This document shows, piece after piece, positions 12,891 to 19,437 of a stretch of DNA of 64,000 bases. The stretch is taken from positions 83,105 through 147,104 of the forward strand of contig NZ_WOSX01000005.1 of the NCBI RefSeq assembly GCF_011516735.1, read 5' to 3'. This DNA is from Acetobacter fallax. GTDB lineage: Bacteria > Pseudomonadota > Alphaproteobacteria > Acetobacterales > Acetobacteraceae. Within the stretch, counting starts at the first letter, position 1. The number at the start of each line of letters is the position of its first letter. A model generated the notes under the pieces. The model searched no databases. It was not told the DNA's origin and worked only from the letters and a program-made list of their open reading frames with translations. The position numbers and the translations under genes are program-made.

Positions 12891-15800
12891 TTATGCTGAG
12901 CGGCTGAAAGGCCCCATCGCCTCCAGCGCGGCTTCCGGCCGGCCGAGGGCGCCCGCGAGGGTTCTGCTGACCTCGCCTTCGCTGAATTTCCCCCGGATCA
13001 GACGGGAGCCGGCCTGCCCCAGAGTGTCGACCATGTCCGGGTCCTGATGAAGGCGCACGATCTGTGCCGCGATCTCCCCTGCATCTTTCTGCACCAGGTC
13101 GCTCAGGTCTGCGGGCAGATCAATGCCTTCGGCGGCCATGGGGCTCATGACGCAGGGCAGTCCGGCGGCGAAGGTTTCCAGAACTTTGCCTTTGATCCCG
13201 GCGCCGAACCGCAATGGCGCGACACCCAGGCGGACGTTTTCGAAGAGATCGTCCCGCAGATTTTCGATTCTGCCGGCAATGTGCACCCCGCCGCATGATG
13301 CGTCTGCTTCACGGGCAAGATCTTCGATGTCCGCGTCTGCGTCGCTTCCAGCCAGTATGCACCGGATCTCCGGGGCCTGCTGCCAGACACGGGGCATGAC
13401 TTCGCTGACCAGCCATTCGGCGGCATCGCGGTTCGGGCCGTGACTGTAATTACCGAGGAAAGCCACGCCATGACGTTCTGACGCGGATTTTCTGACGGGC
13501 TGCGGTGCGATGTCCCATGGCACGACGTGGACGTTCAGTGCGGGCATAAGCCGCCGGAGTTCTGAGGCTTCGAAACCGGAATGGGTTATAACGACATCGG
13601 ACATGAGCGCCGCTGTGACTTCGAGCGTGCGGGTCCGGCCGGCCTCGTAGGCCAGATCCGTGTTGCCTTCGATCCCGGCCTGGCGCGCCATGCGGAGATA
13701 GTGAAGATCAGCCACGCTGTAGATCACGCGGCTGCCGCCCATGTAGCGTCTGACCAGCCCGGCATAGGATGAGGCGATGCTGACACGATGGAGATAGACG
13801 ACATCGAATGTGCCGGCCTGACGTCTCAGCACATCTTCGGGCGACTGGTAGAAAGGCGCGCAGGCCACTGACACGCCTTCGGCTTCCATGGCGGCGATCA
13901 GATCCTGCGGAATGTTTGCCGCGGGTGAGACGAATGTCACCTGGTAACCAAGGCGTCCGAGCGTACGGATATGAGAGTAAATCGCCTGCGATCCGGCGTC
14001 ACATCCCACACGCGGGAACTGTTCGTCGATGACAAGGGCACGGCGCAGTTTCGGTATGTCTGCGGCGGCCCGGCCCGCAAGACGGCGGGACCGTTCCAGT
14101 TCGGCTCTCTCTTCGCGCCGGGTATCATGATCGGCTTTTTGCTGGCTGATGCGTTCTGCCTGACGGGTCACGAAGGCGAGTGCCCTGCGGCGCTCCTCGT
14201 CGGTTTCCAGTCCTGCAACGGCTCTTTCGACGAAAGCTTCCATGTCGTCATTGAAGTCGCCTGCTACGGAAAGATGCTTTGGCGATCCGTGAAGATGATG
14301 ATCCGTGCCGGCGTGACGCACTTCGATGACATGGGGTGTGGCAGGATCAAGCAGCGTGCCGAAAGTCAGCTCAAACGCGGCCCAGCCATTCCCGATACCG
14401 GCTGAGGCGAGGTCCGGACGCTGGCTGGTTGCGCAGATCGTTGTGATATAATGTCCATCCACGAATACATCGACCTGCATTCTCTCCCATGGTCTGTCTT
14501 CATTCCATGCCCAGCCATTGAGCCTGTTCCGGCTGGCGAAATCCAGCCAGCCGTGGAATCTGCCGGTTTTTTCTGGCCGGTCACCGGCTTCCGGATTTTC
14601 CGTCGTGACCGGCCGATGCGGGGATGGCTCCTGATGATGCGAGGGCTCTGTGCCTGCGGCCTGCGCGCAGAGTGCGGCGAGATCGACATAGCCCGCGTGG
14701 ACCGGGACAGTCCCTGCTCCGTGTGGCCGGGCACGTTCTGCGAGCTGTCGCCAGATTTTTGCGAGATGTTCTCCGCCTTCGACGCGGGGGGCGCAGTAGA
14801 TTGCTTCTTCGCGTTTTGCATCGGGGTAGCGGGCGTAATAATCGGCGGCGTTCTGAAACATGCCGCGCGATCCGTCTTCCACGTAGGTTTCGGAGGGGGC
14901 GCCTTCTGCCAGGAGCAGATCGTGGCTTTCCAGTTCGAGGTGGATATAGGCCACTTCGCCGGGCTCTTCATCCTGCACGATGCTGATGCCGTTGATCAGC
15001 GCGCTGGCGGGAACGAGCACGCCATCGACATACATGGCGTGAAGGGGTGACACGCGGAGATCGCGTTGCGGGATGTTGTCGGCGATGGCACCGGCTTTGA
15101 TGGTGACCGGAAGCAGTTTTTTGTTTTTCCCCACGAATTCGGGGGCGTAGCTGCGGCGACCGATCCAGCGGACGGGGCGTAGTTCACCGGACGCTGTGCG
15201 GACGAGATCGCCGATCTCCAGGGTCTCGATCGCGGCTTCTCCGTCCTGAACCGCGATGCGTGTTCCCGGGCAGTAGCAGGCGATGTAGCTCAGTTGCATG
15301 CCCTTATCGCCGGAACTGTCCGTGGTGACTGTAGAGGACGAGAAATCGGCGGCGTCAAACCCTGGGACTGGAGATGCCAGGCTGATAGTGTCAACGGTTT
15401 TACCGGAACTGTCCAGAATCGTGATTGCGGAGTCAGAATAAGACACTGAGTACTGGGTCGGATCGAGGTCGATCTGAAGGGTTGCACCCTTTACCAGAGA
15501 GAGATTCGTCAGCGTGTCGTCGAGGCCACCGATTTCCAGTGTGCCGCCATTTTCAACGGTAATGCCGTTGATGGTCGAATTTACGCCGTCGAGATCCAGA
15601 ATATCAACGTAACCACTGCTGCTGATGGTCACGTTACTGACGCTGGCACCGGCTTCCAGCGTCGCGGAGCCACCGGACCCGACAACGATGCCGGAGAGTG
15701 TTCCGCCGGACTGAACGTCTTCCAGGCCACCGGAACCAATGGTGACATCATAGGAACTGCCACTACCCTGGACCTGCTGCTGGCCGCCGGACAGAATCGT

Positions 15801-16409
15801 GGTGTTGCTGGCGTAACCGCCGCTTGTGACGGCCTGGTTGACACTGAATCCCGTTCCGCTGAGCGTGGTGTCAACAGCCGAGCCACCGGCGTTGATGGTC
15901 TGAAGCGCGTTGCCGAGGACAGTGGCCCCAGACGCGATTCCGCCCGCTGCTACAGTCTGTAATGCCTGCGTGTTGCCGGTGCCTGAGGACAGCATTGCCC
16001 CCGTATCTGTTCCATAGACATTCTCCGACGCCCCGGCATCAATGATCATGTTTCTGGCGGTGCCCTGCGACCAAACAACCGTCGAGGTTCCTGATGTCAT
16101 GGTGACATCGCTGATGGTGGCCCCGTTTTCAACAGCGAACCCACCGGACCCCGTGCTGCCGCCGGAAACCGTGCCGCCGGAAACCGTGCCTTCGGTTCCC
16201 GGACTGGCGTTACCTGTAATGCCAACAAAAAGAGAGCCGCCGGATATGAGCGTGATGCCAGATACAACGCCACCGGATGAGACATAGGCGGTGCCTCCGG
16301 AATTAACCGTGAGGCCACTCACGACAGCTGTGTCGATGATTTTGAGCGTATCGCCGCTACTAACGGTCTGGTTAGTCTGCGTGCCCGTGTTCACCGTCGT
16401 TGTTGTCAT
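12891..16409 (-). CDS. AIDA-repeat / Hint domain / glycosyltransferase fusion protein
   Basis: A 1172-residue multidomain protein. Residues about 30-300 are Gly/Ser/Thr-rich AIDA-type repeats (recurring SGGT...V.SGG.. units of about 20 residues) expected to form a beta-helix. Residues 378 to about 520 are a Hint_2 (hedgehog/intein) domain: Cys378 in CYCPGTRI, LEIGDLV, RVSPLHAMYVDGVLVPA and the usual LLLAEGAPSETYVEDG tail. Residues about 614-712 form a beta-rich module with LNGWAWNEDRPW and RPDLASAGIGNGW. Residues 720-785 are charged and probably coiled coil. Residues 788-1172 look like a GT4-type glycosyltransferase (GSQAIYSHIRTLGRLGYQV, then FLGNYSHGPNRDAAEWL and GAGIKGKVLETFAAGLPCV). There is no signal peptide. 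Autoprocessing at Cys378 could separate the repeats from the transferase, but this is inference. Confidence 0.85.
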   Translation of the reverse strand: MTTTTVNTGTQTNQTVSSGDTLKIIDTAVVSGLTVNSGGTAYVSSGGVVSGITLISGGSLFVGITGNASPGTEGTVSGGTVSGGSTGSGGFAVENGATISDVTMTSGTSTVVWSQGTARNMIIDAGASENVYGTDTGAMLSSGTGNTQALQTVAAGGIASGATVLGNALQTINAGGSAVDTTLSGTGFSVNQAVTSGGYASNTTILSGGQQQVQGSGSSYDVTIGSGGLEDVQSGGTLSGIVVGSGGSATLEAGASVSNVTISSSGYVDILDLDGVNSTINGITVENGGTLEIGGLDDTLTNLSLVKGATLQIDLDPTQYSVSYSDSAITILDSSGKTVDTISLASPVPGFDAADFSSSTVTTDSSGDKGMQLSYIACYCPGTRIAVQDGEAAIETLEIGDLVRTASGELRPVRWIGRRSYAPEFVGKNKKLLPVTIKAGAIADNIPQRDLRVSPLHAMYVDGVLVPASALINGISIVQDEEPGEVAYIHLELESHDLLLAEGAPSETYVEDGSRGMFQNAADYYARYPDAKREEAIYCAPRVEGGEHLAKIWRQLAERARPHGAGTVPVHAGYVDLAALCAQAAGTEPSHHQEPSPHRPVTTENPEAGDRPEKTGRFHGWLDFASRNRLNGWAWNEDRPWERMQVDVFVDGHYITTICATSQRPDLASAGIGNGWAAFELTFGTLLDPATPHVIEVRHAGTDHHLHGSPKHLSVAGDFNDDMEAFVERAVAGLETDEERRRALAFVTRQAERISQQKADHDTRREERAELERSRRLAGRAAADIPKLRRALVIDEQFPRVGCDAGSQAIYSHIRTLGRLGYQVTFVSPAANIPQDLIAAMEAEGVSVACAPFYQSPEDVLRRQAGTFDVVYLHRVSIASSYAGLVRRYMGGSRVIYSVADLHYLRMARQAGIEGNTDLAYEAGRTRTLEVTAALMSDVVITHSGFEASELRRLMPALNVHVVPWDIAPQPVRKSASERHGVAFLGNYSHGPNRDAAEWLVSEVMPRVWQQAPEIRCILAGSDADADIEDLAREADASCGGVHIAGRIENLRDDLFENVRLGVAPLRFGAGIKGKVLETFAAGLPCVMSPMAAEGIDLPADLSDLVQKDAGEIAAQIVRLHQDPDMVDTLGQAGSRLIRGKFSEGEVSRTLAGALGRPEAALEAMGPFSRSA

Positions 16410-16587
16410 GAGTGCCTCCGAAAATCACGCGAAGCCTTTTTTTGGCTAACGGTGCTGTGAAATGTTTCCGGGTCTCATTCTTCCGACAAATCGCTAATTT
16501 TTCGGATACAATGCTTTCTGGCTGTTCATAATTGGAGTTCAGGGCCTGTCGTCAGACCGTTTCGAAGCTCTGTCCGAACGCAAAACG

Positions 16588-18719: not shown

Positions 18720-19003
18720 CCTGTTTTTTTGCTCCGGGTTTCGTCCTGCGAACGAAGAAAACTGAATATCCATTAACGCGTGTGGCCCCCTGCCCCATTC
18801 GCATCTGCGGTCGGGGGGATCAGGGCGTGACGGTCTTTGTCCTCCGTGCCCCGTCTGCCGGGGCAGATCAGGGCGAAAGCGGACATAGGAATGCCATGCG
18901 CTGATCCCGCCGGCCACACGACGACCGAACAAAATCTTCACTTTGTTACGTAGCTTATCCGAAACGAAATGCTCAAGCCCTGTGACGGTGACAAACGCAC
19001 TAA

Positions 19004-19437
19004 TACCAGAGGTTGTGGTGGCAGACCTTTGGCTGAGAGAAGCCGGGCTCTGCCCGAACCCGGAAGGGGTCGTGGACCCTTTCACCCCGATCTGCTGATA
19101 AATAATACCAGAGGGTCTGGCCTTTGAGCTGTGCGAGACTGGCCGGTGCAGGACCGGGAGGTGCAGGACTGGCTGGGCTCTGCCCTGGAACCCGGCAAAG
19201 GCTCGCCTTTGCAAACCGTTTTATCGTTTTATGATCAGCAAACCGGGGTGCAGGGGCCTGCGGTCCCTGCCGGGTCCGGGCTGAGCCCGGATACTCTCAT
19301 CGACAGGTCAGTCTTCACAACCTCTGGTATAAGCCGGTTTCCAAAGGTCTGCGACCTTTGGCGGGTTCCAGGGCAGCCCCCTGCCAGTCCCACACCGGCC
19401 AGTCCCACACGGCTCAAAGGTCAGACCCTCTGGCACC
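19004..19437. repeat. Modular palindromic repeat cluster, copy 3
   Basis: Fills most of the gap between amtB and gor. Modules C and D (GGGCTCTGCCC; GAAGGGGTCGTGGACCCTTTC) at about 19048-19085 are followed by the TACCAGAGGGTCTGGCCTTTGA motif (module E, about 19107-19128), and the A/B pair at about 19335-19385. TACCAGAGG also occurs at about 19012 and 19320 (inverted), giving a nested arrangement. Confidence 0.8.

Follow-up and report, generated by a model that had tools for sequence, protein, structure and literature searches.

Hint domains cut or splice proteins or attach cholesterol to them. The described systems closest to the gene analysed here are the Hog domain of hedgehog proteins, the bacterial intein-like (BIL) domains and inteins, the autotransporters AIDA-I, TibA and Ag43 with their BAHT enzymes, and double glycosyltransferases of the order GWAW-GT2-GT4. 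The gene lies in a 64,000-nucleotide stretch of Acetobacter fallax DNA (contig NZ_WOSX01000005.1, positions 83,105 to 147,104), called the window below, and encodes along a single chain an AIDA-type passenger, a Hint_2 domain, a conserved tail, a GWAW module, a helical linker and a GT4-type glycosyltransferase (GT). From the sequences of this protein and its relatives we predict a maturation step, independent of the passenger, in which Hint cuts at Ala377-Cys378 and the GT would act on a glycan; to this reading we give about an even chance.

Relatives were sought with residues 370-1172, scoring being limited to the 7991 candidates with the most words in common; 384 proteins were found at E ≤ 0.001, and the best 120 of them, the window protein included, are the basis of all 120-sequence counts given here. 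With the Hog domain the protein shares an N-terminal passenger, a Hint cysteine that aligns with the nucleophile of the hedgehog structure 1at0, the histidine of the TxxH motif and a conserved region after Hint. It differs in being bacterial, in carrying Ser for the Thr of TxxH, in having Pro or Ala before the cysteine in 112 of 116 sequences, and in that tail, GWAW module and GT replace the sterol region. Within the hedgehog set Cys258, Thr326 and His329, counterparts of the cysteine and the histidine are present and Ser454 stands for the threonine; none was pinpointed for Asp303. Unlike BIL domains and inteins, the Hint domain is joined to a GT and its near-terminal Asn520, invariant in 120 of 120 sequences, is followed by Ala in 105, Val in 10, Ser in 2 and Phe in 1 (the four commonest letters). 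Splicing is therefore not predicted, as at least 116 of the 120 carry no Cys, Ser or Thr at this position.

The strand-loop-strand repeats of the passenger are those of the AIDA-I, TibA and Ag43 autotransporters, and separate TIGR04414 genes exist here too, one of them beside a sister gene; however, Hint-GT replaces the barrel, and no signal peptide is obvious. The GWAW-GT2-GT4 enzymes have the GWAW module and a related GT4 domain in common with the window protein, but they possess a GT2 domain of their own and most were seen without a Hint in or beside the gene. BAHT enzymes have been described (PMC4358343), a Hint-domain gene is reported as mutated in a cellulose-overproducing mutant (PMC11999647), and PF13403 is one of the units listed as enriched when marine bacteria grow fast (PMC12487129). 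Searches of the open-licence literature of PubMed Central, judged by titles and abstract openings, gave no recognisable description of a Hint domain coupled to a GT; five of the papers listed contain both terms. Database entries are named “Hint domain-containing protein”, “glycosyltransferase” and, in one case, “putative extracellular nuclease/glycosyltransferase involved in cell wall biosynthesis”; annotators had thus already noticed the architecture, and no description of its function was found. If secreted proteins are finished, and perhaps anchored, by a cassette that keeps its Hint residues while swapping passengers, this would be a novel mechanism and possibly a tool for ligating glycans to proteins, and it bears on the question of what, if anything, bacterial hedgehog-like domains attach.

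Domain order and integrity of the reading frame

The preliminary description, made from the letters of the window, had proposed AIDA repeats, Hint_2, a beta-rich GWAW module and a GT as consecutive parts of one polypeptide, and domain searches together with structure prediction bear this order out. Pfam AIDA matches two stretches of the frame, most strongly residues 196-247 (E 7.3e-8). The NCBIfam model AIDA-I runs over residues 5-343 with a score far under its cut-off, the strand-loop-strand repeat TIGR04415 matches five stretches (26.1 bits, cut-off 30), and all five sequence matches of the protein in the PDB are adhesins (TibA, AIDA-I-family, Ag43). The repeat passenger is probably displayed outside the cell. 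Hint_2 (PF13403) matches residues 378-511 with E 4.8e-43 and 147.5 bits against a curated cut-off of 28.4. An AlphaFold2 model of residues 340-1172, computed from 36 sequences with a mean predicted local distance difference test score (pLDDT) of 86.1, contains a Hint-like beta part, a helical tail, the GWAW module, whose residues 618-699 are indeed beta-rich, and, at the C-terminus, where a transferase had been claimed, a GT-B domain spanning about 787-1158. A model of the Hint domain (pLDDT 92.1) matches intein, BIL and hedgehog structures.

The GWAW module has no Pfam match; relatives often carry two copies of it. The GT part has, in the model, the GT-B fold and, by sequence, the group-1 C-terminal domain of GT4 enzymes (Glyco_trans_1_4 at residues 981-1123, E 6.6e-18). 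Its motif RFGAGIKGKVLE contains Lys1073 in 108, Lys1075 in 116 and Glu or Asp at position 1078 in 95 of the 120 sequences, and, as in GT4 enzymes, it is the likely donor-binding site.

A joining error or a pseudogene is ruled out, and the frame is a single genuine one, as the same fusion in the same order is found in relatives from Acetobacter oeni (1116 amino acids in the database, 1143 as called here) and A. musti (1137 amino acids) and selection has kept it. In the comparison with A. oeni, the ratio of nonsynonymous to synonymous substitution (dN/dS) is lowest in Hint (0.12, 185 codons), followed by the GT (0.16, 373 codons), GWAW (0.21, 99 codons) and the passenger (0.29, 366 codons), rough figures given a dS of 0.7 to 1.6; Hint and transferase are under purifying selection. 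A plasmid search gave 267 records with a match, none spanning 80% of the query.

Table 1. Features of the Hint-GT gene in the window, and the AIDA-type O-heptosyltransferase genes elsewhere in the genome.
Feature	Position	Strand	Remarks or basis
Whole open reading frame	12891..16409	-	1172 amino acids; ATG 16409, stop 12891
Shine-Dalgarno-like GGAGG	16415..16419	-	five bases upstream of ATG; sequence
Passenger, residues 30-300, AIDA / strand-loop-strand repeats	15510..16322	-	Pfam, NCBIfam, PDB sequence matches
Predicted scissile junction Ala377-Cys378	15276..15281	-	conserved Cys; intein and 1at0 alignments start there
Hint_2 domain, residues 378-511 (Ser454-x-x-His457, His490, His496, Glu507)	14877..15278	-	Pfam, alignment, model
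Conserved tail after Hint, residues 512-562	14724..14876	-	alignment, model
GWAW beta module, residues 614-712	14274..14570	-	relatives, AlphaFold2 model
Helical linker, residues 716-787	14049..14264	-	alignment, model
GT4-type GT-B transferase, residues 788-1158	12936..14048	-	Pfam, structure model, Foldseek
Likely donor-binding motif RFGAGIKGKVLE, residues 1067-1078	13176..13211	-	residue conservation; donor role as in GT4 enzymes
AIDA-type O-heptosyltransferases of A. fallax	L039 10074-11669; G000:C3:28953-30083		TIGR04414

Exchangeable passengers, fused and split units

Hint, GWAW and GT are present in all 120 listed relatives, partly by selection since the query spans all three, and the cassette recurs across Acetobacteraceae and in Methylobacterium. 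The survey for the same order that had been suggested thus found Hint-GWAW-GT kept in the best 120 of the 384 relatives, and an AIDA passenger (PF16168) in 51 of them. Other passengers are PF03372, which we take to be endonuclease/exonuclease/phosphatase (10), PF09423, presumably a PhoD-type phosphatase (3), the serralysin C-terminal domain PF08548 (3), and a subtilase, a PKD domain and PF16754 (1 each); the remaining 50 showed cassette domains only. A rescan of seven relatives identified P0059 as subtilase-Hint-GT and P0115 as M10-RTX-Hint-GT. Because passengers vary and the units are fused or split with repeated switches between the two states, Hint and GT look like a passenger-independent C-terminal cassette, and a kept Hint-GT behind a varying first part suggests a common route of finishing secreted proteins.

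In A. fallax, five of the seven Hint_2 genes have a GWAW-GT. Three are fused, namely the window gene, one of 2639 amino acids on C16 and one of 1749 amino acids on C4 (taken by length as P0094, with a PF03372 passenger). Two are split, with a separate GWAW-GT gene following the Hint gene on C51 (35 bases between the frames) and C23. The remaining two have neither tail nor GT. Split pairs generally often have GWAW on both halves.

Forty family genomes of at least 98% completeness, A. fallax included, were surveyed. Hint_2 occurs in 33 of them, with 206 matches (summed from the table) and up to 22 per genome. From about every second listed Hint_2 row, skipping some at contig ends, 60 places with 62 Hint genes were sampled; the counts use all open reading frames, and at some places less than 5 kb of downstream sequence was available. 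Most sampled Hint_2 genes are without a transferase beside them. The tail reaches at least 30 bits in nine of the 62, and four of these have a GWAW-GT (two fused and two adjacent, one of the latter with its GT interrupted by a stop), compared with none of the 53 genes below that threshold, among which L138 has a GWAW module and the neighbour of L154 a weaker GT match of 90 bits. For the other five tail genes no GT was found, and the idea that the tail strictly marks linkage to a GT was dropped; one of these, L129, has a fused Hint-GT gene (L074) about 5 kb upstream.

Searched from the other side, the same genomes gave 47 rows for the GWAW-GT query, comprising 20 loci that match both modules, 26 that match the GT alone and, as the last row, the GWAW part of an already counted Hint gene. 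A complete Hint accompanies 15 of the 20 loci (8 in the same gene, 7 adjacent; 5 of the 15 belong to A. fallax) and a remnant one more, while none of the 26 GT-alone rows is within 20 kb of any listed Hint_2. For 89 GT domains, of which 32 are fused, 27 split and 30 neither (window gene not in the rows), a quickly searched tree requires six changes between fused and split, with 25 of 86 inner branches left open for weak support. Among its labels, split L086, L107 and L111 are distant GT2-GT4-type neighbours or uncertain, and fused L185 holds only a Hint remnant. In the separate GT-linkage table, L107 is scored differently than in the tree, and L135 (= L190) and L193, the latter with overlapping open frames, were counted as true pairs after inspection by eye. 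The place of the break is not fixed either, as it falls between GWAW and GT in Asaia (L077). We regard the recurrent switching between the fused and the split state, with adjacency kept, as good evidence that the two parts work together.

A linkage without chemistry, in which Hint is inactive or only hydrolyses and the GWAW-GT either is an ordinary transferase for envelope glycans or, like a lectin, anchors the passenger at a polysaccharide, appears unlikely to us. Hint and GT are also found apart, and Pro precedes the cysteine in 76 of 116 sequences, as such a reading would have it; yet Cys378, His457 and His496 are invariant, dN/dS of Hint is the lowest of the four parts measured, and the repeated fused/adjacent switching argues for a joint function.

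Two loci of the survey deserve mention. The split Hint / GWAW-GT pair L135 / L190 (G062:C51) has an in-frame stop that interrupts the GT, and L185 (2882-5449) is a GWAW-GWAW-GT fusion with a Hint remnant of 29 bits, possibly a natural loss of the cutting domain.

Passenger glycosylation and the dedicated heptosyltransferases

The preliminary description had further suggested that the transferase glycosylates the repeats of its own chain, and this part is not supported. Self-anchoring through a glycan, the other option raised there, may still apply. The A. fallax genome has two matches over cut-off to TIGR04414, the AIDA/TibA O-heptosyltransferase, both on contigs other than that of the window gene, one of them being the next gene after the sister AIDA-Hint-GT fusion of C16; moreover, the cassette also occurs on passengers without AIDA repeats. 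TIGR04414 was found in 17 of 19 genomes chosen for bearing Hint_2 or cassette matches, and is absent from G070 and G074, where the passengers of the fused cassettes contain 0 and 2 SGG triplets (L130, L191). In Acetobacteraceae KSS8 a heptosyltransferase gene follows the fusion gene after about 0.6 kb, and in Gluconobacter sphaericus a relative (BLAST) adjoins the fusion gene. A heptosyltransferase directly beside the cassette is nevertheless the exception, since among the GT-linked rows one lies within 3 kb in 4 of the 38 classed as “AIDA-like” (only 3 different loci, L074 and L196 apparently being one gene) and in 0 of the 21 others, where “AIDA-like” denotes three or more SGG triplets before Hint and includes some nuclease passengers.

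Self-glycosylation, in which the fused GT would put sugars on Ser/Thr of its own passenger before Hint releases it, we thus regard as rather improbable. The passenger would offer acceptors, with 28% Ser/Thr in residues 30-300 and a mean of 23% in the passengers of relatives against 9% in the Hint-GT part, and the Foldseek list includes adhesin glycosylators such as SdgB among many other GT-B enzymes. Against it stand the dedicated heptosyltransferases, and the same GT is kept on nuclease, phosphatase and protease passengers, so that its general role cannot lie in glycosylating AIDA repeats. Furthermore, three of the four scanned GTs without a Hint in the same gene are GT2-GT4 double enzymes, which look like polysaccharide enzymes. 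Judged by gene content, the AIDA repeats seem not to need the fused GT, since dedicated O-heptosyltransferases exist for them.

Junction chemistry and export

That Cys378 occupies the position of the Hint nucleophile, as had been claimed, is confirmed by its presence in 118 of 118 aligned sequences with that column (2 of the 120 are gapped there) and by the alignments to inteins and hedgehog, which begin at Cys378 against residue 1 and 258, respectively. The block-B histidine His457 is conserved in 120 of 120 and Ser454 in 119 of 120. Cys378 is preceded by Pro in 76, Ala in 36, Thr in 3 and Leu in 1 (n = 116). The tail, with its helices, occupies the place of the adduct-recognition region of hedgehog-type proteins, compared by position only.

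We consider it very unlikely that a second cut at Asn520 would follow the model of some BIL domains and leave passenger, Hint and transferase as three pieces. Asn520 is invariant, its preceding residue is His in 91 sequences (Gln in the window protein and 15 others), and split pairs encode the GT as a separate chain; however, most intein alignments stop at model residues 139-144 (protein 508-513), short of Asn520 at model residue 151, and Ala follows it in 105 sequences.

For the single cut at Ala377-Cys378, we propose that Cys378 would attack the carbonyl of Ala377 in an N-to-S acyl shift aided by Ser454 and His457, leaving the C-terminus of the passenger as a thioester from which a nucleophile would then free it. 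The GT, kept beside Hint by the GWAW module or modules, would probably supply or position this nucleophile, a sugar hydroxyl; alternatively, it may modify a common site near the junction. Perhaps a glycan is the acceptor for ligation of the passenger, as cholesterol is for hedgehog. By analogy with hedgehog, the attack on the thioester might specifically come from a hydroxyl on a sugar or glycolipid that the GT4 domain binds or has just made, giving a glycan ester-linked at the passenger C-terminus; we think this improbable in so definite a form. If true, many unrelated secreted proteins would be anchored to the polysaccharide of the cell via a C-terminal glycan ester, and Hint-GT would serve as a universal, exchangeable tag for ligating proteins to glycans, the bacterial equivalent of attaching cholesterol to hedgehog.

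Several points weigh against a joint maturation step of Hint and GT. Pro directly before the nucleophile, as in the majority of relatives counted above, disfavours N-terminal cleavage by known inteins. Five of the nine sampled Hint genes with a tail have no GT found nearby, so the GT is not obligatory, and four of the 20 GWAW-GT loci are without Hint. Some transferases may be altered, given that 15 of the 120 sequences carry Ala and 5 carry Thr at position 1078. The predicted template modelling score of the structure model is 0.63, and the model settles the domains, not their mutual placement. Finally, donor sugars are cytoplasmic, whereas such passengers should work outside the cell.

A classical type Va autotransporter is ruled out, as the beta-barrel PF03797 has no match in the protein (E up to 1) and none in the genome; with two TIGR04414 genes and no PF03797, AIDA repeats may reach the surface by another route. 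No clear signal peptide was seen among the 120 listed proteins by crude hydropathy, in which 6 of the 120 reach 2.0, compared with 4 of 6 putative secreted controls, with database-predicted start sites. Type I export is the leading guess. As a proven route it was dropped, since HlyD (TIGR01843) is near-universal, occurring in 39 of the 40 family genomes, among them 6 of the 7 that lack Hint_2; the sole HlyD over cut-off in A. fallax sits on a contig other than that of the window gene. Genes of type I secretion systems (T1SS) near Hint_2 genes are few (e.g. L150) and, by a rough hand estimate, not evidently enriched. When flanking genes were clustered, the groups reflected for the most part local synteny and the broad ABC family, and conserved neighbours that would name an exporter were given up.

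One A. fallax T1SS operon (L184, G000:C7, 4826-16739) has HlyD and an HlyB-like ABC protein, the latter below cut-off, on one strand. Along with them it includes two genes with Sel1 repeats, one gene each for a TPR-GT2-GT4 protein (1145 amino acids) and a ChW protein (392 amino acids), and a GT4 gene. No direct link to the Hint-GT genes was found for it. A relative of the 1145-residue protein (34% identity) lies near a giant Hint-GT fusion of Acidisoma silvae (L070). At L042 (G000:C10, 7532-13606), a Hint_2 gene without GT stands beside a small protein with a double-glycine-like leader and HlyD-like and bacteriocin-exporter-like ABC proteins, both below NCBIfam cut-offs. Within the window itself, positions 18940-19260 (G000:C5:102044-102364) hold a dispersed repeat; this 321-base query gave 91 matches in the genome including itself, on both strands and in many cases 60-150 bases long with 75-90% identity, and it looks like a REP-type family of intergenic elements.

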